A stretch of DNA of 64,000 nucleotides, taken from positions 1 through 64,000 of the forward strand of contig CABYQR010000004.1 of assembly GCA_902521155.1 (NCBI GenBank), read 5' to 3'. The position numbers and the translations under genes were made by a program. Origin of the DNA: an uncultured Alphaproteobacteria bacterium (GTDB lineage Bacteria > Pseudomonadota > Alphaproteobacteria > HIMB59). The notes under the pieces were generated by a model. It did no database searches, was not told the DNA's origin, and worked only from the letters and a program-made list of their open reading frames with translations. Below, piece after piece: positions 2,133 through 16,539 of this stretch (positions are counted from its first letter, which is position 1; each line of letters begins with the position of its first letter).

Positions 2133-4900
2133 TATTTTTTTAAATAAATACCTGTTTGGTTGCCTTTGCTTTTAATTATGTCCTTAGGTAGACCTTCAAA
2201 AAGTATATGACCACCTTTTTCTCCACCCTCGGGGCCCAAATCGATTATCCAATCACTAGTGTTGACTACATCTAGGTTGTGTTCAATTACAATGACAGTA
2301 TTCCCGTATGATACTAATTTATGAAGAATTTCTAAAAGTTTTTTAATATCATCAAAGTGCAAACCAGTAGTTGGTTCATCTAAAATATAAAGTGTTTTTC
2401 CAGTTTGTCTTTTTGACAACTCCTTGGAAAGTTTAATTCTTTGAGCTTCTCCTCCAGATAATGTAGTTGCGGCTTGACCTATAGAGATATAACCTAATCC
2501 AACTTCATTAAGTGTTTTTAACTTAGAGAATACTTGTGGATTAGATGAAAAAAATTCGCATGCATCATCCACTGTCATATTAAGTATGTCGCTTATATTT
2601 TTCGATTTATACTTAACTGCTAAAGTTTCTTTATTATATCTTTTTCCATCACAAACTTCACATTTTACGTACACTGGTGCTAAGAAGTGCATTTCAATCT
2701 TTTTAAGACCATCTCCTTCACAGCTTTCACATCTTCCACCTTTGACATTAAAAGAAAATCTACCTGGTTTAAATCCTTTTACTTTGGAGTCTGGAAGGTT
2801 AGCAAACCATTCTCTAATAGGAGTAAATAGGCCAACATAGGTTGCCGGATTTGAACGTGGTGTTCTCCCAATGGGTGATTGGTCTATATTGATTACCTTA
2901 TCTACATTTTCAATTCCTTTAATGTCTTGATAGGGAAGTGTTTTAACAATTTTTTCATAAATTCTATTATTTGTAGCCCCATATAAGGTCTCATTGATCA
3001 AAGTAGATTTTCCACTTCCTGAAACACCAGTTACTGAAATAAATTTACCTAAAGGAAATTTTACATCTACTTCTTTTAAATTATTTCCATGAGCTTTTTT
3101 AATTTCAATAAAATCTTTAGATACTTTTTTACTAATTGAGCTTGGATACCTTGTTGTTAATCCTTTTATATAGTCTGCAGTTAAACTATTCGAACTTCTT
3201 AAGATCATATCAAAGTTACCTTCTGCAACTATACTTCCACCATTAATGCCTGCGTATCTACCAATATCAACCACATAGTCTGCTTCCTTAATTATGTCTT
3301 CGTCATGCTCAACAACAATTATTGAATTTCCTAAGTCTCTCAAATTTTTTAGAGTGTTTATCAGTTTTTGGTTATCTCTTTGATGTAAACCTATAGAAGG
3401 TTCATCAAGGACATAAGTTACTCCAGTCAATCCCGAACCAATCTGACTAGCTAGTCTTATTCTTTGAGATTCCCCACCTGAAAGAGTAGAGCTTTTTCTT
3501 GATAAGCTTAAATAGTTTAACCCCACTTCATTTAAAAAATTCAATCGAGAATATATTTCTTTTTTTAGTGGTGCTGCTATGATTTTTTTTTGTTCAGTTA
3601 AATTATTTTCAAATTTATTTATCCATTTAAGTGATTCACTAATACTCAGTGTAGTAAATTCACTAATATTTAATTCATTTACTTTAATACATAGTGCTTT
3701 CTCATTTAATCTCTTACCCACGCACTCTTTACAAATTTTAGAATTTCTAAATTTTTCTAGTTCCCATTGCCTCCACCAACTGGATGTTCCGTCGTAAATA
3801 CTATCCATAATATTAATTAATCCTTCAAAATCTTTTCCTCCATAAAGTACTTCATTTTGAAATACCTTTGGCAACTTTGACCATATTATTTTTTCACATT
3901 TCTTGGATTGAAATAGTTTTTTTAATTTTGGATTTATTCTTGATTTAGCTTTTTCTGACCAAAAGTTTACTGCGTTATCATTAAAACTTAGATTTTTATC
4001 GGGTATTAGAATATCTTCATCAAATGAATCAACCTCACCTAGACCATCACATTTTTTACAAGCACCATAAGGATTATTAAAGCTAAATAATCTTGGTTCA
4101 ATTTCATCAATACTAAAACCACTAACAGGGCACATAAATTTATTTGAAAAATTTATTAAATCCTCATTCTCAACATTATAGACCTCAACACTACCATTGC
4201 TCTCACTTAAACTAATTTCAATACTATTAGCTAATCTATCTCTATTCTCTGGAGAAGGAATAATTCTATCAATTATTACACTAATACTGTGTTTATAATT
4301 TTTACTTAACTCTGGAATTTCATCTTTTTGATAAACTTTTTGATTAATAAAAAATCTTTCATATCCTTTTTTAAAATATTCATCAAATAATTTTTTATAT
4401 TCCCCTTTTCTTCCTTTTATTAAAGGTGACATAATCATTATTTTTTGTTTCAAAAATTTACTTTCAATTTCGTCTATTATTTCAGAGCTTGTTAGACCTC
4501 TAATAGGTTTTCCAGTTGCGGGTGAGTAGGGTATCCCCACTCTTGCATAGAGCACTCTTAGGTAATCATATATTTCTGTTACTGTTCCAACAGTGGATCG
4601 AGGATTTTTTGAAGTTGTTTTTTGATCTATAGAAATAGCTGGAGATAATCCTTCAATTTTATCAACCTTGGGTTTATCCATCATATCTAAGAATTGTCTC
4701 GCATAGGCACTAAGTGATTCGATATATTTTCTTTGGCCTTCTGCGTAGATTGTATCGAAAGCTAAAGTTGACTTTCCTGATCCACTTACACCAGTAATCA
4801 CAACTAATTTATTTTTCGGTAAACTAAGATTTATATTTTTAAGATTATGTTCATGAGCATTATGAACAATAATGTGAGTTAGAGGTGACTGATTTTTCAT
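2099..4900 (-). CDS. uvrA: Excinuclease ABC subunit A
   Basis: 933 aa; two ABC ATPase domains (GVSGSGKSTLAFDT, GVSGSGKSTLINET), zinc-finger cysteines, LSGGEAQRIKL. Confidence 0.98.
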   Translation of the reverse strand: MKNQSPLTHIIVHNAHEHNLKNINLSLPKNKLVVITGVSGSGKSTLAFDTIYAEGQRKYIESLSAYARQFLDMMDKPKVDKIEGLSPAISIDQKTTSKNPRSTVGTVTEIYDYLRVLYARVGIPYSPATGKPIRGLTSSEIIDEIESKFLKQKIMIMSPLIKGRKGEYKKLFDEYFKKGYERFFINQKVYQKDEIPELSKNYKHSISVIIDRIIPSPENRDRLANSIEISLSESNGSVEVYNVENEDLINFSNKFMCPVSGFSIDEIEPRLFSFNNPYGACKKCDGLGEVDSFDEDILIPDKNLSFNDNAVNFWSEKAKSRINPKLKKLFQSKKCEKIIWSKLPKVFQNEVLYGGKDFEGLINIMDSIYDGTSSWWRQWELEKFRNSKICKECVGKRLNEKALCIKVNELNISEFTTLSISESLKWINKFENNLTEQKKIIAAPLKKEIYSRLNFLNEVGLNYLSLSRKSSTLSGGESQRIRLASQIGSGLTGVTYVLDEPSIGLHQRDNQKLINTLKNLRDLGNSIIVVEHDEDIIKEADYVVDIGRYAGINGGSIVAEGNFDMILRSSNSLTADYIKGLTTRYPSSISKKVSKDFIEIKKAHGNNLKEVDVKFPLGKFISVTGVSGSGKSTLINETLYGATNNRIYEKIVKTLPYQDIKGIENVDKVINIDQSPIGRTPRSNPATYVGLFTPIREWFANLPDSKVKGFKPGRFSFNVKGGRCESCEGDGLKKIEMHFLAPVYVKCEVCDGKRYNKETLAVKYKSKNISDILNMTVDDACEFFSSNPQVFSKLKTLNEVGLGYISIGQAATTLSGGEAQRIKLSKELSKRQTGKTLYILDEPTTGLHFDDIKKLLEILHKLVSYGNTVIVIEHNLDVVNTSDWIIDLGPEGGEKGGHILFEGLPKDIIKSKGNQTGIYLKKYQESLALSTAS

Positions 4901-4956
4901 TAATTAAGTTTCAAAAATGTTGAATTAATATATATTATATTTTTATTAAAAAAATC

Positions 4957-5424
4957 ATGGCTGGATCAGTAAATAAAGTAATTCTTCTTGGTAACCTGGG
5001 TAAAGATCCCGACATTAGAGCTACGTCGGCAGGTTCTCGTCTTGCTAGTTTCTCTATTGCTACATCAACAAAATATAGGAATAAAGAGACACAACAGTTA
5101 GAAGACAAGACTGAATGGCATAGGGTAGTCGTTTTTAACGATAAACTAGCTGATATTTGCGAGAAATATCTAAAAAAGGGCTCCAAAGTTTATATTGAAG
5201 GACAATTACAAACTCGTAAATGGACAGATAATAACGGCATCGATAAATACACCACAGAGGTAGTAATCCCAAATTATTCTGGTGTAATGACGATGCTAGA
5301 TTCACGTTCTCAATCTCCAGTCACCGATGAAAATACTAATCAGTTAGAATCTGCAGCTGATGAAGCTTTAGGTGGTTCAGATAACTCTACAGCTGAACAA
5401 CTTGATGATGATATTCCCTTTTAA
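4957..5424 (+). CDS. ssb: Single-stranded DNA-binding protein
   Basis: MAGSVNKVILLGNLGKDPD... N-terminus and acidic C-terminal tip DDDIPF; divergent from uvrA. Confidence 0.97.
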   Translation: MAGSVNKVILLGNLGKDPDIRATSAGSRLASFSIATSTKYRNKETQQLEDKTEWHRVVVFNDKLADICEKYLKKGSKVYIEGQLQTRKWTDNNGIDKYTTEVVIPNYSGVMTMLDSRSQSPVTDENTNQLESAADEALGGSDNSTAEQLDDDIPF

Positions 5425-5433
5425 ATAAAATCA

Positions 5434-8100
5434 TTGGCAAAGAAGAAAAAAACAAATTCAAAGCAGCTAGATGTATTGGACTCCAATGTTTATCCTAACA
5501 TTAGTATTACCGATGAATTAGAAAAAAGTTATTTAGATTATGCCATGAGTGTAATTGTATCTCGGGCTTTACCAGATGTGAGAGATGGATTAAAGCCAGT
5601 GCATAGAAGAATTCTTTATTCTATGTATGAGGCTTCTTATCATCATAATAAACCCTACAAAAAATCTGCAAGAATAGTTGGAGACGTTATGGGAAAGTAT
5701 CACCCACATGGTGATTCTTCAATTTATGAGGCTATGGTTCGCATGGCTCAAGATTTTACTATGCGTCTTCCATTAATTGATGGTCAGGGTAATTATGGCT
5801 CTATGGACGGTGACCCAGCAGCAGCTATGAGATATACAGAAGCTAGACTCGATAAAGTGTCATCATTTATGTTAGAGGAGTTAGAATATGAAACTGTTCA
5901 ACTTCGCCCCAATTATGACGAGACGTTAACAGAACCAAAATTTCTTCCATCAAGATTTCCAAATATTTTCGTTAATGGAGCTAGTGGTATTGCTGTTGGT
6001 ATGGCTACAAACATTCCACCTCATAATTTAGGTGAAATTATTGATGCAACCCTTCTTTTAGTTGATGAACCAGATACGACATCAAAGCAACTTCATAAGA
6101 TAGTTAAAGGCCCTGATTTTCCTACTGGTGCTATTATCTCTGGCACTGCTGGTTTAAATTCAATGTATGAAACAGGTAGAGGGAGCGTTACAGTATTATC
6201 AAAACTTCATGAAGAAAAAATTAAAACCAGAAATGCAATAGTAATTACTGAAATTCCTTATCTGCAAAATAAATCAAAGCTTTTAGAAAGAATTGCTGAT
6301 GTGGTTAATAATAAAACTATTGAAGGGATTAGTGATATCCGTGATGAGTCTAACAAAGAAGGTGTGAGAATTGTTGTAGAATTAAAATCTTCAGCTGTCC
6401 CTGAAATTATTAAAAATCAACTATTTCAATATACTCCATTGAAATCTTCTTTTAGTAGTAACATGCTAGCTTTAAAAGAAACCAAACCTGTAACTATTAC
6501 ATTACAAGATGGTTTATCTTATTTCATAGATTTTAGAAAAGATGTCATTACTAAAAGAACAGTATTTAAACTTAATAAGGCAAGAGAAAAGGCCAACATC
6601 CTAATAGGATTATCAATTGCGGTTAATAACATTGACACAATTATAAATTTAATTAAAAAGTCTAAAAATCCAGCTGAAGCTAAAACAAAATTACTTTCTA
6701 CTAAATGGACTGCAAAATCTAATATTACGCAATATATAAAGTTAATTAATCCTAGTTTTAAATCTTCTTCATCAAAGATTTCTTTAGACGAAGACCAGGC
6801 AAAAGCTATTCTGGAATTAAGATTACAAAAACTTACAGCTCTAGAAAGAGACGATCTCTTTAATAACTTAAAATCATTGGTTGATGATATAAATGGCTAC
6901 TTAAAAATTCTAAATTCTAATAAACAATTATTAAAAGTTTTAAAAGATGAACTGATAGAAATTAAAAATAATTTTGCAACACCTAGAAAAACTGAAATTC
7001 AAAAGCATGACTTAGAAGAAGTTGATACGGAAGATTTAATAGTTGAGGAAGATGTTGTAGTTACAGTTTCTCATCAGGGTTATATTAAACGCGTACTTAA
7101 ATCCTCTTACAAAGTCCAAAAAAGAGGCGGTAAAGGTAAAAATGCTATGACCACAAGAGACGAAGATTTTCTAGAACAGGTTTTTGCGGCTACAACAAGA
7201 GACACAATATTATTCTTCACTTCTGTTGGTAAAGTTTACTCAATGAAAGCATATGAATTACCTGCTGGTACACCTACATCTAGAGGTAAAGCTATAGTTA
7301 ATTTAATACCTATTTCCAAAAATGAAAAACTTTCATCTATTTTAACACTTCCAAAAGACATAGGTGACTTTGAAAACTATAATTTGGTTTTTGCTACTAG
7401 CCTAGGAAATATTCGAAAAAATAAATTAAAAGATGTAGCGATGAGTGGTACACGTAAATTATCTAGATCTGGTAAAACAGCTATTAAACTTAAAACTGGA
7501 GATCGTTTAATCGGCGTAATTTCAGTTATAGAAAATGATGATGTGCAGCTAGCAACTACAAATGGAAAATCTATTCGATTTGCAACTAAAGATTTAAGAG
7601 AGTTCTCTGGTTTAGGTTCTGCAGGCGTAAGAGGAATTAAGTTAGCCAAAGATGACAAAGTAGTTTCTATCTCAAGTCTACTTCATAACAAAATATCAAT
7701 TGATGTTAGAGAGTCTTATTTAAAAGCTAAGAGTGAAGCAAAAAAAGATCCTTCAAAAATTAACAAAAAATTTAAGGAATTAGCTGACACAGAAGAATTC
7801 CTCTTATCTATTACAGAAAATGGCTATGGTAAATTAAGTTCAGCATACGAATATCGTATTACTAATAGAGGGGGTTCTGGAGTTACTAATATTACAATAA
7901 CCCCAAAAAATGGCAGAGTCATTCAATCTCTTAAAGTTAATTTAGATGACAATATAGCTTTGATTTCAGATACTGGTAAATTATTAAGGTGTAATGTGGG
8001 AGAAAATATAAGAGTAGTTGGTCGAGTCTCTCAAGGAGTATCAGTGTTTAAAGTTGACTCTAAAGAAAAAATCGTATCAGTTGCTAGATTAGAAGATTAA
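5434..8100 (+). CDS. gyrA: DNA gyrase subunit A (TTG start)
   Basis: [30 protein letters not shown], catalytic region [12 protein letters not shown]-terminal GyrA-box-like [10 protein letters not shown]. Confidence 0.97.
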
Positions 8101-8101
8101 A

Positions 8102-8590
8102 ATGTCTAAAATTGGAATTTATCCTGGTTCTTTTGACCCTATAACTCTGGGTCATCTCGATATTATTCAACGAAGTCTGAATGTTGTAGATAAGTTGATA
8201 ATAGCAGTATCAGATAATAAATCTAAAAGTCACATGATATCTATAGATGATAGATTAGATTTAACTATAAAAACAATCCAAGCTCTTCCTGATAATCTTC
8301 AAAAAAAGATTGAAATAGAAAAGTTTGATAATTTATTAGTACACTATGTCAAATCAAAAAATGCATCTTTAATTATTAGAGGCTTAAGAGCAGTTTCAGA
8401 CTTTGAGTATGAATTTTTAATGACAGGTATGAATAGAACAATTGACAATGAAATAGAGACCATCTTTTTAATGTCAGCTGAAAAATATCATTTTATTTCT
8501 TCTAGATTTATAAAAGAGATCCATAATCTTGGAGGAGATATTTCAAAAAGTGTTCCTAAACCAGTTCTTGATTTCTTGTCAAAAATTTGA
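8102..8590 (+). CDS. coaD: Phosphopantetheine adenylyltransferase
   Basis: IGIYPGSFDPITLGHLDII and ISSRFIKEI motifs; 162 aa. Confidence 0.96.
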   Translation: MSKIGIYPGSFDPITLGHLDIIQRSLNVVDKLIIAVSDNKSKSHMISIDDRLDLTIKTIQALPDNLQKKIEIEKFDNLLVHYVKSKNASLIIRGLRAVSDFEYEFLMTGMNRTIDNEIETIFLMSAEKYHFISSRFIKEIHNLGGDISKSVPKPVLDFLSKI

Positions 8591-8609: not shown

Positions 8610-8685
8610 GGGCCCATAGCTCAGCTGGTAGAGCACCTGACTTTTAATCAGGGTGTCACAGGTTCGAATCCTGTTGGGCTCACCA
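8610..8685 (+). tRNA. tRNA-Lys (anticodon TTT)
   Basis: 76 nt with encoded CCA; acceptor GGGCCCA/TGGGCTC pairs (one G-U), anticodon arm CCTGA-CTTTTAA-TCAGG, T arm ACAGGTTCGAATCCTGT. Confidence 0.97.
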
Positions 8686-8794
8686 CTTTTAAGGTGAGAA
8701 CAATTTACAAATAAAAATAGTTCTATTGTTTTATCGCAGTTACTGAGCAATTGGACTCAACTAAATAGAGTAAATACTTTTTACATTCTGAGAA

Positions 8795-9199
8795 TTATGT
8801 AATACTTTCAATAAAACTATTAAGTTTTAATGAAATATCTTCAGCATCAGATAGTGTAGATGCACCCACTGCAATTTCTAAATTTTCTAAAAATAACTTC
8901 CATGCCATATCATTTGATATTTTATTTTCATTTAATCTATTATCGATTAAATCTGTCAAATTCTCCATATCAGAAACTAATTTTGGATAAATTACATCTG
9001 ATGATATGATTGATTGTTTAAGACATGTTCTTGATTTTGAAAAAAAAGGTTCAATATTTTTACACTCTTCAATTTTTGATAATTCTTTACTATAATTATA
9101 TGAATTTGTGGTGCACGAAATAAGACTAAAAAAAAATATGAAAACAATAAAATTTTTAATAATTTTTACAATTTCAAATTTGTTTATGAATTTATCCAT
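8795..9199 (-). CDS. Hypothetical lipoprotein
   Basis: N-terminal hydrophobic segment followed by lipobox SLISC; 134 aa; overlaps head-to-head with the next ORF. Confidence 0.55.
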   Translation of the reverse strand: MDKFINKFEIVKIIKNFIVFIFFFSLISCTTNSYNYSKELSKIEECKNIEPFFSKSRTCLKQSIISSDVIYPKLVSDMENLTDLIDNRLNENKISNDMAWKLFLENLEIAVGASTLSDAEDISLKLNSFIESIT

Positions 9200-10370
9200 T
9201 TCTAAAGATCTTATTTATTCTGGGTTTTCCCTGCAAGGGAATTTTTCTCATAACAATGTTAATTATCCTATGTTTTCAAAACTATTAAACGAAAATAATG
9301 AAATAAATTTAAAATTGTATGAGTTATTAAAAAATAAATCCAATCTATTAACAAATAAATCTGACGATAACGAAGGATACGTAGTTTCATTTGGACTATT
9401 AACAGAAAATATCAATTTTTATAAAGTCAATAATTTATCAAAAAGTGAATATGTATTATATCCACAAGTATTTATCTATGATAATGAAACAAAAAACTTT
9501 GTAAGTTCAATATCTACAAGATTACATATCCCTATTGCAAGCGAATTAGATAAAAAAAAGAGTATCAATGATGAGGCATTTGAAAATTATAAATTTTTAA
9601 TCTTAAATCCAGATCCTGTAATTACTTATAATGGTAGATGTTCTGATAAAAAGGATATTAAAACATCATTTATGAATATTTATAGTATTTTACTTGATTG
9701 TATTAATTTAAGTGAGATAAATAAATTTAATTTACAAATAAGAAATATTGATTTAGGTGACACTGGTTATACGAATTTACCTTTTATTAAAAATGAAAAA
9801 GATGTTGATGCTTTAAAGTATATGATAGCAAATATTGGGACAGCTATGTCTTCCTCAAGTACATATGAAGACCAATTTTTTATGCTTCCTTATTCTAAGG
9901 AACAATCTATTGCCAATGTCCAAGACAGATTTACAAATACTTTAAATCTTACAGTGAGTCTTCCTGAGCCAGATTTTGTTATAGATATTAAAATTGAAAG
10001 AACAAAAAAAAAGATCATAAATGAAAATAAAGTTGAAGCAAATGTTGGATATTTTATTGGAATTAACTATAAAATTTTAGAACCATTTAGTAACACAGTA
10101 ATTTTTGATAGTGATTTTAAATATGCAATAAAAATTAGATACCCAAAGGATCTATCAACTAATTCTTTAAACTTATCTGATCAAAACAATTTATTTTTTT
10201 ACAACAGAATGTTTGAGGAATTAATCTTTAAAATATCTTCTAATATTTTAATTGAGAAACTAAGTAAGGATAATAAAAAGTGGTTAAAAAAACATTCAAA
10301 GAACTCTGAGACTTATAATAAATCATTGAAAATGCATAATAATATAGCCAAAACTTTCTTCAATTTTTAA
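9138..10370 (+). CDS. Hypothetical secreted protein
   Basis: Signal peptide MKTIKFLIIFTISNLFMNLSIS from the internal ATG at 9138; tightly coupled downstream genes. Confidence 0.75.
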   Translation: MKTIKFLIIFTISNLFMNLSISKDLIYSGFSLQGNFSHNNVNYPMFSKLLNENNEINLKLYELLKNKSNLLTNKSDDNEGYVVSFGLLTENINFYKVNNLSKSEYVLYPQVFIYDNETKNFVSSISTRLHIPIASELDKKKSINDEAFENYKFLILNPDPVITYNGRCSDKKDIKTSFMNIYSILLDCINLSEINKFNLQIRNIDLGDTGYTNLPFIKNEKDVDALKYMIANIGTAMSSSSTYEDQFFMLPYSKEQSIANVQDRFTNTLNLTVSLPEPDFVIDIKIERTKKKIINENKVEANVGYFIGINYKILEPFSNTVIFDSDFKYAIKIRYPKDLSTNSLNLSDQNNLFFYNRMFEELIFKISSNILIEKLSKDNKKWLKKHSKNSETYNKSLKMHNNIAKTFFNF

Positions 10371-10397
10371 TTGATCATCTTTTTAAAAACTGTTCTT

Positions 10398-11477
10398 ATG
10401 CACAATATGAAATATATTTTAGCATTTTTAATATTATTTTTATCAATAATTAATCAAACTCATTCATACGAACTTAAAGTAAGTGGCAATTATAAATATG
10501 GGAATTGGGGTTTGAAAGAAGAGGACAGGAATGAAGCAGAGTTAGATCTTAAAAAAGATGCTATTAAAAAATATGTTAATGAAAAATTCAAAGGAAATAA
10601 ATCAGGTTATAGAGATTTTAAAAAAGTAGAAGATCAGGTACTTCAGAATATAGATGATTTTGTAAATATAGTTTCATTTTTAGTTGATGACAATGATAAG
10701 AAAAATAAAACTCTTAAACTTACAGCTAAAATAGAAATCAATGAAATGGAATTAGATTTTCTAATTTCTGATTCATCTGCAATTGGAAATGCCATGCCTT
10801 CAGAGGAGTCTGACATAGCAATAGTTACAATTACGGCAAAACTTAAAAAATTAAATTCTTTTAAAGATAAAATTACAGACGTTTCAAAGAGTAAAGATGA
10901 AAGCTACTCAGCAGAGTCTAGTCAAGTTGATGATACTGGTGCAGAAATTTCAATTATTAATGAATCTGAAAGTGTCTCTCAGACTGGGGGTAGTACAGAA
11001 ACTAAATTATCAAATATAGAGTATGGTCCTATTCAAGGTCTAGATGAAGAGCTTTTTGCAAGAGCTGCTCAAATATTTAATGACAATATGTTTAATCCAA
11101 TTGATGCATCCCAGTTTTTAGATACCACTAAAATTTTGAATGAGTATTTATCTGGAGAGTCATTAAGTAGGGATACAAAAAATGAAATTTATAAAACAAT
11201 AATAGATTATGAAATTCCTTATCTTATTATTTCAAAATTAAAGGTAGACGGTATGAGTACTGATCCTGCAACAGGTAAGAAAGAGGCATCTTTAAGAGCT
11301 ATCTCAGAGGTATTTAAATGCGAAAAATTTTGTAAAAGTATAGCCACTGTAGGCCCGGTTAGAGCTAACCAAATAGGTTCATCCGAAAATGAAGCAATAA
11401 CAAATTCACTATATTATGCAGTTGAGTCTGCAACAGAACAGTCTGTTAACATGATGAATGCCAAAGGTGTGAGATAA
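10398..11477 (+). CDS. Hypothetical secreted protein
   Basis: Hydrophobic N-terminal signal (MKYILAFLILFLSIINQTHS); ORF track starts at TTG 10371, internal ATGs at 10398/10407 more likely; stop overlaps next ATG. Confidence 0.75.
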   Translation: MHNMKYILAFLILFLSIINQTHSYELKVSGNYKYGNWGLKEEDRNEAELDLKKDAIKKYVNEKFKGNKSGYRDFKKVEDQVLQNIDDFVNIVSFLVDDNDKKNKTLKLTAKIEINEMELDFLISDSSAIGNAMPSEESDIAIVTITAKLKKLNSFKDKITDVSKSKDESYSAESSQVDDTGAEISIINESESVSQTGGSTETKLSNIEYGPIQGLDEELFARAAQIFNDNMFNPIDASQFLDTTKILNEYLSGESLSRDTKNEIYKTIIDYEIPYLIISKLKVDGMSTDPATGKKEASLRAISEVFKCEKFCKSIATVGPVRANQIGSSENEAITNSLYYAVESATEQSVNMMNAKGVR

Positions 11478-12445
11478 TGAGAATACTAATTATCTTTATA
11501 TTATTAATTTTTAGCTTCAATATCATTTCAATTAAAGCTGAAGGTATTTTTGGTGATATTCTTGGAAATGCCCTAGATGAAATGGGTAAACAATTAGAAA
11601 ATGCCCAGAATAATGACTCTTCAGGAAACTTTAATGCCGATGGCTCGATAAACCTTGAACAAGCCTTTGAAAATTCTAAAAATACAGAGGTTCAATGGTC
11701 ACCACACACTTGGATAAGTGTAGGGGCCCCAAAGCATTGTCCTAATTGGTTCAGCGCTTACTTTGAAGAGAGGCAAGATGCAAAAAAAAGATACCCTACA
11801 GAATCTAGATGGTATTTTGATTGTCATCAATATTATCCAGATGCGAAGAAGCCTTTTATAGATTATGAAGCTCAGTGTGAAATTCTTGGACCAGAAGATT
11901 GTGCTGTAGCGAAGCAATATAGAAAAGTAGGCAAAGAACGTCGTCAAAATATTTTGGAATACAGCACAGCTTTAGTCAAAATAGCCGAGGCAATTGGACT
12001 TAAAGAAAATGCATCTGATCTTTCAGCGACTATCGAATATCTAAAAAGTGAGGGAATAGAGGGAACAAGAGAATATGATGAAGGTATTGAGGTGGCATGG
12101 GTTGAGACACAAAATCTCGCTGATGAAATCGTAAATACTTTAGGCAAAGGCTATGTTCCATCAGACTCTGAAACGAAGTTATTACAAGAAGCTGTGAAGT
12201 TAAGTAACAGTGCAGTATTAAGTTGGACTAGGGCATCCAAAGAAAGAGATAAATTAGAAAAAATGGGAGGTGGTTTGGGGTCTATTCTTACCTCCTTTAG
12301 TTTAGTTGAAGGATTTCCAGACTTAGCAAGAAGAGTAGAAGAAGCACTTATCCAATATGAAAATACAATATCTTTAAATACGGGTAAGGACTTAGATTTA
12401 GAAGATGCTAATTTAGATGATGAATTAGATAGTTTTGAATTTTAA
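11477..12445 (+). CDS. Hypothetical secreted protein
   Basis: Signal peptide MRILIIFILLIFSFNIISIKA; TAATG overlaps on both sides. Confidence 0.78.
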   Translation: MRILIIFILLIFSFNIISIKAEGIFGDILGNALDEMGKQLENAQNNDSSGNFNADGSINLEQAFENSKNTEVQWSPHTWISVGAPKHCPNWFSAYFEERQDAKKRYPTESRWYFDCHQYYPDAKKPFIDYEAQCEILGPEDCAVAKQYRKVGKERRQNILEYSTALVKIAEAIGLKENASDLSATIEYLKSEGIEGTREYDEGIEVAWVETQNLADEIVNTLGKGYVPSDSETKLLQEAVKLSNSAVLSWTRASKERDKLEKMGGGLGSILTSFSLVEGFPDLARRVEEALIQYENTISLNTGKDLDLEDANLDDELDSFEF

Positions 12446-13728
12446 TGATTTTTCCTCATAGAGAAAAATTTACAATAAGATTATTAAAAACTTTTTTTTC
12501 TATAACCTTTTTTATCTTCTCTTTATCCAGTTTAAAAGCTGAAGTAAAATATATAACCTTAAATGTTTCAGCTTCTGGTAATACTGAAGAAATAGCTATT
12601 AATAATGCATTAATAGAGTCTTTGAGCCAAGTCAATGGATCAAAAATTGAAGGTTCGGTCACTATAAAAGAGTTTGAAAGTGTAAAACAATCAAATAGTT
12701 CCCAAGATTATTTTTATTCAGAAAATTATTCAAAAGATATAAGTAAGTTTACAAAAGGTATTATTGAAAATTATCAAATTATAGATTCAGATAATGGTAA
12801 TTTTGGTGAATGGAACGTTGAAGTATCAGTAACAATTGCTAAATATGCCTTAAGTAATCAAACTAAAAGAAAAAGAATAGCTGTTTTGCCTTTTAGAATT
12901 ACAGATACAAGGAGTTTAGAAGTTCAAAATAAAAAAATAGATAAACGCAGAGTTTTGGGTTTGCTAAATCAGTCTTTAGTAACTTATTTTACTCAGACTA
13001 GAAAATTTTTTGTAGCCGATAGAGATTTTGTTGATGAACTTTATATAGAAAGAGACTTTTTAAAAAATGAAGATGTACCTTTAGCAGAAATTTCAAAACT
13101 TGGTAATGACCTTGGCGTAGATCTTATATTAGTTGGGGTAATAGAGGATTTTAATACTAAATCAATTAAAAAAAAATTTGAAAATCTTAATAAAACTTTT
13201 GTCTCCACAAAGGGAATAGTTGAAATATCTTATAGAGTTATTGATGTTGCTACACGTCAAATTAAATATGCTAATCTTTATTTATCGGACAGTGGTACAG
13301 ATAATATCAACGCAGATACACAAATGATACTTGATGCAGTTTCTAAAATTGGAAATGATATTTTATTTGCTATATATCCTTTGAGAGTTGAAAAAATTGA
13401 AGGTGAGATTATTTATCTTGGTCAGGGAGGTACTCAAATTAACGTAGGCGATAAGTTCGGTGTATTTCGTTTAGGAGATGAGATCAATGACTCTTATACA
13501 GGTGAATCACTAGGTCAAATTGAGGAACGTATAGGAACAGCAATAATAACAAGTCGAACATCAAAAATTAGCTCTGCAAAGTTGGAACTTAATGAGGATA
13601 TCTATATTGACTCAAAAACTGAATTAATATTGAGAAATATTGAAGAAAAGGTAGAATACAAAACATTAGTAAGTGATAAAATAAAACAAAAGAAGGAAGA
13701 AAAAGATGAAGATGAAGATATTTGGTAA
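12445..13728 (+). CDS. Hypothetical secreted CsgG/LpoB-like envelope protein
   Basis: N-terminal signal; KRKRIAVLPFRITDTRS...LGNDLGVDLILVGVIEDF resembles the CsgG-type fold; C-terminal beta-rich segment GTQINVGDKFGVFRLG. Confidence 0.65.
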   Translation: MIFPHREKFTIRLLKTFFSITFFIFSLSSLKAEVKYITLNVSASGNTEEIAINNALIESLSQVNGSKIEGSVTIKEFESVKQSNSSQDYFYSENYSKDISKFTKGIIENYQIIDSDNGNFGEWNVEVSVTIAKYALSNQTKRKRIAVLPFRITDTRSLEVQNKKIDKRRVLGLLNQSLVTYFTQTRKFFVADRDFVDELYIERDFLKNEDVPLAEISKLGNDLGVDLILVGVIEDFNTKSIKKKFENLNKTFVSTKGIVEISYRVIDVATRQIKYANLYLSDSGTDNINADTQMILDAVSKIGNDILFAIYPLRVEKIEGEIIYLGQGGTQINVGDKFGVFRLGDEINDSYTGESLGQIEERIGTAIITSRTSKISSAKLELNEDIYIDSKTELILRNIEEKVEYKTLVSDKIKQKKEEKDEDEDIW

Positions 13729-15040
13729 ACAAACATTATTTATTTTAAGTGTTTTATTTTTTTTTTCACCATCCTATGTTCATTCATTTGATCCATTTGA
13801 AAATAGTGGTTTACCCTCAGATGCAGCAAATGATTACATAAACTCTCTTGGATATAATACTAATGAACCTCAAAAACTACCTGATGGAAGTTATGCTGTA
13901 TTTTTAACTGGTATAGCTGAAATTAAAGCTGATCCTCAAAATCCAAAGTTTATTGAATCAAGATCCAATGCTTTTGATAGTGCTGTTTTAAACGCAAAAT
14001 CAGAATTTGCTAAGTATCTTGAAAGAAAAATTCAAGGAGAGATTAAATTAACTATCAATTCTGGCAATTTCCCCTCTAAAGAGGATACCTCATCTGCTCT
14101 TGAGAATACTGTCCTAGGATATTTAGATAGAGCTAACATGTTAATTATGTCTGAACTTGACAAAAGACTTTTAGAAAATGGAGTTGACATAAATTCTATT
14201 CAAGAAAAATCAGCTGATAGAAAAAAAGAGTTAGAAGCTGTAGCCGCTCTAGCTGAGAAAACATTAAGCACCACTGAGTTTTCTCGTGCTATAGAATTAA
14301 CAGCCAATAGGTTTGTCTCAGGAGTTCAAATACTTGGAGTTTTTGAGGATTTTTCAATTGGAGAAACTAAAGGAACAATTGCCGTTGCTGCAGTTTATAG
14401 TGACAAAACACTCAAAATTGCGCAATCTATTTTAAGAAATGATCCCAGTTTAGCTCCTGAACCTAATGTTCTTAACCCCGGTATGTCTATTGAGGATACT
14501 ATTAAGGATTTTGGTAAAGGTATTTTAACTTTCCAGGGTGCTAAGTTAATAATCAATGAAAGAGGAGAGCCTGTTATTTTAAGCTTTGCTCAAACTGGTC
14601 TTCCTAAAAACAGTACCACAGCTAAATTAATTGCCGCAAAAAAAGCAAATTTAATCGCTGACAGCTATATTGATCAATTTGTTGGTGAGATGGTCTCAGC
14701 TTTTGAAGCCATAGAAGGTAAAGAAACTTTCAAAGATCTCACAGATGGTGAACACTATAATTATGAAGAGGGTTTTAAGCAGGATATAACCTCAAATTTT
14801 GGTGGCAATAACATTTCAGGCGTTAAAAAAGTTGTTGAATGGATACAACCACACCCTCTAACAGATCAAACAATTGTGGGTGTAGTTAGGTCTTGGTCTC
14901 CTACATCCGCTTATCTAGCAGGTAAGGCAAAAAAAGGCAAATTATCAAAAGATCCTGAACCAAAAAGCGTCATTGAAAGCTCATCTGAAGTTAAAGAAGA
15001 TTACTCCTCATCTGGGGTAACATCTAATACTGACTTTTAA
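13706..15040 (+). CDS. Hypothetical secreted protein, operon-terminal
   Basis: Signal peptide KQTLFILSVLFFFSPSYVHS; overlaps previous CDS by 23 nt; stop codon lies inside a tRNA-Lys-derived repeat. Confidence 0.75.
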   Translation: MKMKIFGKQTLFILSVLFFFSPSYVHSFDPFENSGLPSDAANDYINSLGYNTNEPQKLPDGSYAVFLTGIAEIKADPQNPKFIESRSNAFDSAVLNAKSEFAKYLERKIQGEIKLTINSGNFPSKEDTSSALENTVLGYLDRANMLIMSELDKRLLENGVDINSIQEKSADRKKELEAVAALAEKTLSTTEFSRAIELTANRFVSGVQILGVFEDFSIGETKGTIAVAAVYSDKTLKIAQSILRNDPSLAPEPNVLNPGMSIEDTIKDFGKGILTFQGAKLIINERGEPVILSFAQTGLPKNSTTAKLIAAKKANLIADSYIDQFVGEMVSAFEAIEGKETFKDLTDGEHYNYEEGFKQDITSNFGGNNISGVKKVVEWIQPHPLTDQTIVGVVRSWSPTSAYLAGKAKKGKLSKDPEPKSVIESSSEVKEDYSSSGVTSNTDF

Positions 15041-15054
15041 TCAGGTTGTTACAG
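15030..15054 (+). repeat. Direct repeat of the tRNA-Lys anticodon arm to T-stem start (att-like remnant)
   Basis: CTGACTTTTAATCAGGTTGTTACAG versus tRNA 8637-8661 CTGACTTTTAATCAGGGTGTCACAG: 23/25 identical, first 16 exact, same orientation. Confidence 0.85.
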
Positions 15055-15109: not shown

Positions 15110-15556
15110 ATGATCAAAGTATATTTAGCTGGTGAAATTCATAGTAATTGGCGAGAAGAAGTAATTAGTCTTTGTGAGGTAGATAAACTAGATATTAAGT
15201 TTACCTCTCCTGTAACAAATCACGAAAATTCTGATAATTGTGGTACAGAAATATTAGGTACTGAAGAAAAAATTTTTTGGAAGGATCAAAAAGGTGCTAA
15301 TATTAATTCTATAAGAACTAGAAAGTATATTCAAGATTGTGACGTTGTAATTGTTAAGTTTGGAGAAAAATATAAGCAATGGAACGCTGCTTTTGATGCA
15401 GGATATGCAGCAGCTCTTAATAAATCAATAATTGTCATACATAATGAAGATCAACAGCATGCTTTAAAAGAAATAGATGCCGCTGCTTCCGCAGTTGCCT
15501 CTAATACAAAACAAGTGGTTCGAATTCTTAAATACATAATTCAAGGAGAGTTATAA
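15110..15556 (+). CDS. ytoQ: YtoQ family protein
   Basis: MIKVYLAGEIHSNWREEV..., FWKDQKGANINSIRTRKYI; 148 aa. Confidence 0.8.
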   Translation: MIKVYLAGEIHSNWREEVISLCEVDKLDIKFTSPVTNHENSDNCGTEILGTEEKIFWKDQKGANINSIRTRKYIQDCDVVIVKFGEKYKQWNAAFDAGYAAALNKSIIVIHNEDQQHALKEIDAAASAVASNTKQVVRILKYIIQGEL

Positions 15557-15558
15557 AA

Positions 15559-16539
15559 TTGAAATTTAGAGAATTTTCTGATGTTGGATGGAAAGTATCT
15601 GAGGTTGGTCTTGGATGTTGGGCTATTGGTTCAGAGTGGGGTGATGTATCAAAAGAGGATGCCACTGAAGTTTTAAAATCATCTTTAGATCATGGAATAA
15701 ATTTTTTTGACACTGCTGATGTTTACGGTGATGGTAGAAGTGAAAGATTTGTAGGTGAGTTATTAAAATCCACAAATGAAAAAATTTATATTGCTACAAA
15801 ATCAGGTAGAAGATTAAACCCACATACATCTAATGGATATAATTTAAACAATATAGAGAGTTTTATTGATCGATCTTTAATAAATCTTGGGGTGGATTGT
15901 ATTGATTTATTACAACTTCACTGTCCTCCTTCTGATGTTTGTTCAAAAAAAGAAACTTATGAAATGATGGATGAAATAGTAAAAAAAGGAAAGATTTCTT
16001 ATTACGGAGTGAGTGTTGAAAAAGTTTCTGAAGCTATGGATGCAATTCAGTTCTCAAATGTAAAAAGCATTCAAATCATCTTTAATATGTTTCGTCAAAA
16101 GCCTGCTGAAGAATTTTTTCAAGAAGCTGCTAAAAAAAATGTTGCGATAATTGCCAGAGTTCCCTTGGCGAGTGGTTTGTTAACTGGTAAAATGACAGAA
16201 AGTTCATCTTTTCCTGCTAATGATCATCGTAATTATAATATTAAGGGTGAGGCCTTTGATGTAGGTGAGACTTTTTCTGGCGTAAATTTTGATAAAGGTC
16301 TTCAAGCTGTAGAGGAAATAAAGAAACTAATACCTAATAATTTTTCATTAACAGACTTGGCTCTCAAGTGGATATTGATGCATCAAGAAATTACTGTTGC
16401 TATACCTGGCGCAAAAAAAAATCATCAATTATCTAAGAATGTTAATGCTGTTCATTTAGATGATATTTCCTCCCTCATGCCCTTAATAAAAGATGTTTAT
16501 AGCCAATATCTAAAAGAAGACATTCATCACCGTTGGTAA
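15559..16539 (+). CDS. Aldo/keto reductase
   Basis: GLGCWAIG, FFDTADVYGDGRSE, IYIATKSG, VAIPGAK motifs. Confidence 0.92.
   Translation: MKFREFSDVGWKVSEVGLGCWAIGSEWGDVSKEDATEVLKSSLDHGINFFDTADVYGDGRSERFVGELLKSTNEKIYIATKSGRRLNPHTSNGYNLNNIESFIDRSLINLGVDCIDLLQLHCPPSDVCSKKETYEMMDEIVKKGKISYYGVSVEKVSEAMDAIQFSNVKSIQIIFNMFRQKPAEEFFQEAAKKNVAIIARVPLASGLLTGKMTESSSFPANDHRNYNIKGEAFDVGETFSGVNFDKGLQAVEEIKKLIPNNFSLTDLALKWILMHQEITVAIPGAKKNHQLSKNVNAVHLDDISSLMPLIKDVYSQYLKEDIHHRW

Follow-up and report, generated by a model that had tools for sequence, protein, structure and literature searches.

A probably immobilised cargo island at a tRNA-Lys insertion hotspot between coaD and ytoQ in the HIMB59 order

How did a 6.4-kb block of genes come to lie between an intact tRNA-Lys gene and a short piece of the same gene in an uncultured, small-genome marine alphaproteobacterium of the HIMB59 lineage, and can it still move? 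The window (the whole stretch of 64,000 nucleotides that was analysed; GenBank assembly GCA_902521155.1, contig CABYQR010000004.1, positions 1 to 64,000) contains a single tRNA gene, identified by ARAGORN as tRNA-Lys (ttt). A first-pass annotation, made from the letters alone, had described a possible island bracketed by this gene and a repeat of its positions 8637-8661 at 15030-15054 in the same orientation; sequence comparison confirmed this repeat. The bracketed DNA holds a five-gene exported/CsgG-type operon and a small lipoprotein-like gene. Taken together, the results described here indicate that the window island probably occupies a tRNA-Lys hotspot made by integrases between coaD and ytoQ and has become immobile there (Table 1).

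Table 1. Positions of the genes, the tRNA sequences and the island end described in the text, numbered along the window.
Feature	Positions	Strand	Remarks
coaD, left flanking core gene	8102..8590	+	Pfam CTP_transf_like; 12.8% divergent from G046
Intact tRNA-Lys(ttt), integration site	8610..8685	+	ARAGORN; anticodon loop CTTTTAA 8641-8647
Left-end signature, inverted repeat	8679..8700	+	tRNA CTCACC (8679-8684) + ACTTTTAA + GGTGAG (8693-8698)
Cargo ORF with lipoprotein-like signal, 134 aa	8795..9199	-	no Pfam match; lipobox judged by eye
Cargo gene 2, 420 aa (ATG 9141), exported, family unknown	9108..10370	+	G024 ortholog 32% identical
Cargo gene 3, 368 aa (ATG 10398 likely), exported	10371..11477	+	orthologs 39% identical
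Cargo gene 4, 322 aa, exported	11477..12445	+	orthologs 41% identical
Cargo gene 5, 427 aa, CsgG domain	12445..13728	+	PF03783 23.3 bits, cut-off 20.8
Cargo gene 6, 444 aa, DUF6844-like	13706..15040	+	PF20891 25.8 bits, below cut-off 27
Partial displaced tRNA-Lys 3' half (probable decayed right attachment site)	15030..15054	+	23/25 identical; overlaps end of cargo gene 6; 46-nt counterpart in G046
ytoQ, right flanking core gene	15110..15556	+	PF11071; first 231 nt 10.8% divergent from G046

The site was surveyed in 40 members of the genus (window genome included) in which the tRNA-Lys gene is assembled; these genomes are mostly incomplete drafts. coaD was found upstream of tRNA-Lys in all 40. 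The site is empty, with tRNA-Lys directly beside ytoQ, in 28 genomes (in one of them, G045, ytoQ is divergent), and 12 genomes carry cargo, which in 11 cases is unlike that of the window. This other cargo comprises a 587-aa ORF (G006), a Big_5/autotransporter protein of ~830 aa (G023, G019 and G009, the G009 copy being split by a stop), a KAP NTPase together with an ATP-dependent DNA ligase (G011), metabolic genes (G013 and G024), a small ORF (G002) and other kinds elsewhere. Since most relatives are empty and several hold other genes, the locus is a genuine slot of cargo turnover. A displaced tRNA 3' half of 46 nt lies beside ytoQ in G006, G023 and G046, and one of ~46 nt was found 3.3 kb downstream in G044. 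Empty sites or different cargo in relatives had been proposed at the outset as support for an island, and the survey, with these four displaced halves, provides it. An operon syntenic at this position in all relatives, which had been named as speaking against an island, was not found: of the 162 genomes of the order, 8 have the CsgG-like gene, and in the relatives examined it never lies beside tRNA-Lys.

The G011 cargo (L079, G011:C14:18500-27309, 3222-8579) gave a KAP P-loop NTPase match of 122.9 bits and matches to the PADLOC models PDC-S20 and PifA, and it includes unknown genes as well; this island is possibly defence cargo.

The sister genome G046 (DNA identity to the window 97.6% for gyrA and 98.1% for akr) carries at the same tRNA-Lys a different island of 7.5 kb with cargo unrelated to that of the window. 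The tRNA is followed by what is left of a P4-type integrase (89 aa; PF13356 arm-binding domain, 36.6 bits), then by the cargo, the 46-nt tRNA half and ytoQ, and the arm repeats (GGTGGACTGA...) are paired at both ends of the island. A second integrase remnant, also at tRNA-Lys, was detected in G015. A search of 52 genomes, many of which are incomplete, revealed N-terminal remnants only and no intact P4-type integrase at tRNA-Lys. Intact P4-type integrases of the genus (L195-L200) lie just 3' of tRNA-Arg(tct) and tRNA-Asp, so that enzymes of this family, and their preference for tRNA genes, are established for the genus. Each of these tRNA-Arg and tRNA-Asp integrases has its own paired repeats upstream, e.g. 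GGGTACACATAGGGTACACAG. The integrase G015:C116 was considered as a helper and rejected, its upstream repeats being unlike the tRNA-Lys arms.

Inspection of ORFs and Pfam matches revealed no integrase gene (PF13356 plus PF00589) within the window island, and neither a P4-type integrase nor PF13356 was detected in the window genome (G000, 78% complete). Two PF00589 hits in this genome (frames of 329 and 245 aa) were rejected as P4-type integrases; their class is present in nearly every relative and was read as XerC/XerD. The initial description of an island without integrase, whose mobility would be in trans or ancient, agrees with these searches and with the N-terminal remnants at tRNA-Lys elsewhere.

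The window fragment represents 25 of the ~46 nt of the tRNA 3' half, in the orientation of the intact tRNA. The 16-mer CTGACTTTTAATCAGG occurs at two sites only (tRNA and fragment) in the 1.11-Mb genome, even when 2 mismatches are allowed, and from base composition ~1e-8 matches to the 25-mer with at most 2 mismatches are expected in 6.4 kb. Between the core ACTTTTAATCAG and the ytoQ ATG lie 77 nt, both in the window and in G046, G023 and those empty sites whose clade shares this ytoQ type; other clades have 54-56 nt. On the grounds of composition, spacing and the uniqueness of the 16-mer, a chance origin of the fragment was rejected.

Part of the match has another origin. The last codons of cargo gene 6, GAC TTT TAA (15032-15040), coincide with the anticodon-loop sequence, and the protein ends in ...SNTDF-stop (ACT GAC TTT TAA). 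Orthologs of this gene in G015 and G024, located elsewhere in the chromosome, end in ...SSSN[M/I]DF-stop (GAT TTT TAA) and those of family f2 in ...DDDF-stop. Since the C-terminal DF-stop is conserved in orthologs, GACTTTTAA (nine of the 25 matching bases) belongs to the gene's own coding sequence and does not by itself point to a tRNA origin. The part that needs explanation is therefore TCAGGTTGTTACAG, directly after the gene end: given the Asp-Phe-stop end of the last gene, these next 14 nt match the tRNA at 12 positions (P ~9e-7). The original interpretation, which took the whole 25-nt match as a tRNA fragment, needs amending for the nine bases of the gene end.

Past the fragment, the 24 nt that follow agree with the native end of the tRNA at only 6 positions, although the total length is conserved. 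This drop in identity is abrupt (P 5e-4 for the difference, against uniform decay) and does not fit uniform neutral decay of the displaced half. The trailer that follows shows no clear homology to the native one; the tail may have been replaced, or the changed bases may go back to earlier events in the lineage of the donor.

At the left end, the 15 nt just after the tRNA (CTTTTAAGGTGAGAA, 8686-8700) recur unchanged at the left ends of the islands in G006 and G023. GGTGAG or GTGAG, which pairs with the CTCACC of the tRNA, was present at 8 of the 12 filled sites and at none of the 28 empty ones. The left end of the window island was also sought in 51 relatives and was not found. A short, 86%-identical copy of part of it (window ~8806-8839) was seen on another contig of the same genome (G000:C9:27279-27314, E 8e-5).

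Paired arm repeats at both island ends were found in G006, G023 and G046. The window island showed no clear pair; the G006-type pattern is absent from its genome and the right arm region is missing. By eye only, a faint repeat pair is visible near 8745-8770. At the right end of the window island, the stop codon of the operon meets the tRNA fragment without spacer and without arm repeat, whereas complete islands at tRNA-Lys have ~100 bp or more, plus arm repeats, between cargo and tRNA half. Because GACTTTTAA is also the end of the last operon gene, conserved in its orthologs, the right junction falls within the 9-mer common to gene and tRNA, and the right arm has been lost.

These observations suggest the following history. 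Elements with a P4-type tyrosine integrase would have inserted at the anticodon loop of tRNA-Lys(ttt), each insertion rebuilding the tRNA and pushing the native 3' half to the far end beside ytoQ, and later occupants would have lost the integrase and kept the cargo. The right arm of the window island may have been lost by a deletion between 9-bp direct repeats, GA[C/T]TTTTAA at the gene end and GACTTTTAA in the displaced anticodon loop, and this deletion would have frozen the island. Between close lineages, islands may now pass mainly by homologous recombination through coaD and ytoQ. We favour a hotspot because relatives show empty sites, other cargo, full tRNA halves and integrase remnants, and because the window itself combines the left-end signature, a partial displaced half at the 77-nt spacing and a divergence peak in both flanking genes.

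Other readings of these ends were considered. The ends of the G006 and G023 islands (L071, L068) are 92-94% alike over 130-150 nt and carry GTGAACCA arm-repeat pairs; their cargo is different and no integrase was found in them. We regard it as a tentative, rather unlikely possibility that tRNA-Lys hosts a family of non-autonomous cargo elements of this kind (G006, G023, partly G009 and G019), which have conserved ends and arm repeats, differ in their cargo or have it rearranged, and depend on a P4-type integrase, as yet unseen, that acts in trans, and that the window island is an immobilised relative whose right attachment site is fused with the stop codon of the gene. Alternatively, the end of the last gene could itself have been the crossover site: GACTTTTAA resembles the 7-nt anticodon-loop overlap, and an integrase could have joined it to the tRNA with no later deletion. 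A junction located exactly in GA[C/T]TTTTAA, with no spacer, and the presence of GATTTTTAA in the orthologs would be expected from such an event, but the distance of ~100 bp or more and the arm repeats that separate cargo and tRNA half in complete islands make it improbable. Because the left end of the window island bears the normal signature of an element, an ordinary element followed by a deletion is the simpler explanation.

The preferred reading, an immobilised occupant of a hotspot, includes a recent exchange through the flanking genes. Comparison of the window with G046 revealed 62 differences in 486 positions of coaD and 63 in 2664 of gyrA (P 4e-20), and 25 in 231 of the 5' part of ytoQ against 19 in 978 of akr (P 1.5e-8). 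gyrA, akr and yitT all diverge by ~2% (gyrA, next to coaD, 2.4%; akr, behind ytoQ, 1.9%). Between distant relatives, coaD (~20%) and gyrA (~18%) are about equally divergent. The two peaks of divergence, one in coaD and one in the 5' half of ytoQ, suggest that the island was recently exchanged, probably by homologous recombination through these flanks. No donor of the exchanged segment was identified among the relatives compared. The flanks of G006 are mosaic too, with a coaD 96.9% identical to that of G003 and a ytoQ 97.1% identical to that of G001 and 76% to that of G023. The ytoQ of the window is of the kind seen in the G003/G023 clade, but the akr behind it has relatives only in G040, G043, G044 and G046; the G003/G023 clade has sdr-hisD at the place of akr. 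These different affinities of ytoQ and akr (15110-16539) indicate that the right flank of the window is also mosaic.

Such flanks raise the question of whether homologous recombination at a variable slot explains the locus entirely, an integrase never having acted on the operon and the 25-nt match being a chance convergence on an Asp-Phe-stop gene end. The divergence peaks, the mosaic flanks of G006 and the native coding origin of nine of the 25 bases fit this view, and a phosphate island of the HIMB59 order has been ascribed to homologous recombination (PMC10734472). We nevertheless consider it quite improbable, given the 12/14 match past the stop codon at the ancestral spacing, the 15 nt that the left end has in common with true islands, and the integrase remnants and full tRNA halves at tRNA-Lys in relatives. 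That the window island can still move as a non-autonomous element, with an integrase encoded elsewhere carrying out excision and insertion in trans, is extremely improbable: G006 and G023 do retain conserved ends and arm repeats around different cargo without an integrase, but in the window island the right arm is missing, as is the greater part of the right tRNA half, and no P4-type integrase was detected in its 78% complete genome.

A virus was rejected as donor. In IMG/VR, the matches to the tRNA-Lys 3' half are nearly all intact tRNA-Lys genes on other, mostly higher-GC contigs; the 33-nt host version of this half had no match in IMG/VR, and the last operon gene had none in phage records.

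Islands at tRNA-Lys hotspots are of a known kind, apparently unreported in this clade. In 'Ca. Methylopumilus' (Methylophilaceae), the additive flexible genomic island fGI-2 is located at tRNA-Lys(ctt) and has tRNA-Lys fragment repeats (PMC10872708). The two share variable cargo of mostly unknown function, a streamlined aquatic host and the fragment repeats; fGI-2 differs in bacterial class and tRNA-Lys isoacceptor, and its repeats cover the last 20 nt of the tRNA instead of the part from anticodon to 3' end (PMC10872708). Raised variation at the borders was not reported for fGI-2 (PMC10872708), whereas the window borders are strongly divergent. With P4-type tyrosine-integrase islands and prophages in tRNA genes, the tRNA-Lys islands of the relatives share PF13356, paired arms and the displaced 3' half; in the window island, an integrase and clear arms are missing and the tRNA half comprises only 25 nt. 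Replacement flexible genomic islands, including the HIMB59 phosphate island, resemble it in constant position, different content and divergence at the borders, but the phosphate island, for which homologous recombination was inferred, was described as having no tRNA at its boundaries (PMC10734472), whereas a tRNA and a fragment of it flank the window island. Tycheposons, known from Prochlorococcus and also from Methylophilaceae (PMC10872708), are likewise cargo islands bordered by tRNA in streamlined aquatic bacteria; they have their own tyrosine recombinase, which the window island lacks, and we do not claim membership. The HIMB59-order site would combine two routes, one through attachment sites made by an integrase of which remnants persist, the other through exchange of flanks between sisters, and coaD, tRNA-Lys and ytoQ offer a defined slot in which accessory genes such as exported proteins and defence-like cargo can be surveyed in wild populations.

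The cargo of the window island had been called an envelope operon; its exported proteins, the CsgG domain (PF03783) and the DUF6844-like protein suggest a putative role in envelope assembly or secretion. A sequence comparison of the CsgG-like protein with solved structures gave no match, and a wider scan of contigs returned only two operon orthologs, both already known. Cargo gene 2 and the 134-aa ORF overlap on opposite strands. The GC content of the island (29.4%) is only slightly lower than that of the left (30.6%) and right (31.6%) flanks. The last two operon proteins (window 12445-15040) have acidic C-termini with a final aromatic residue (...DEDIW and ...NTDF), and their orthologs (L085, L086, L213-L217) end in ...DDDW and ...DDDF, a possible conserved C-terminal signal.
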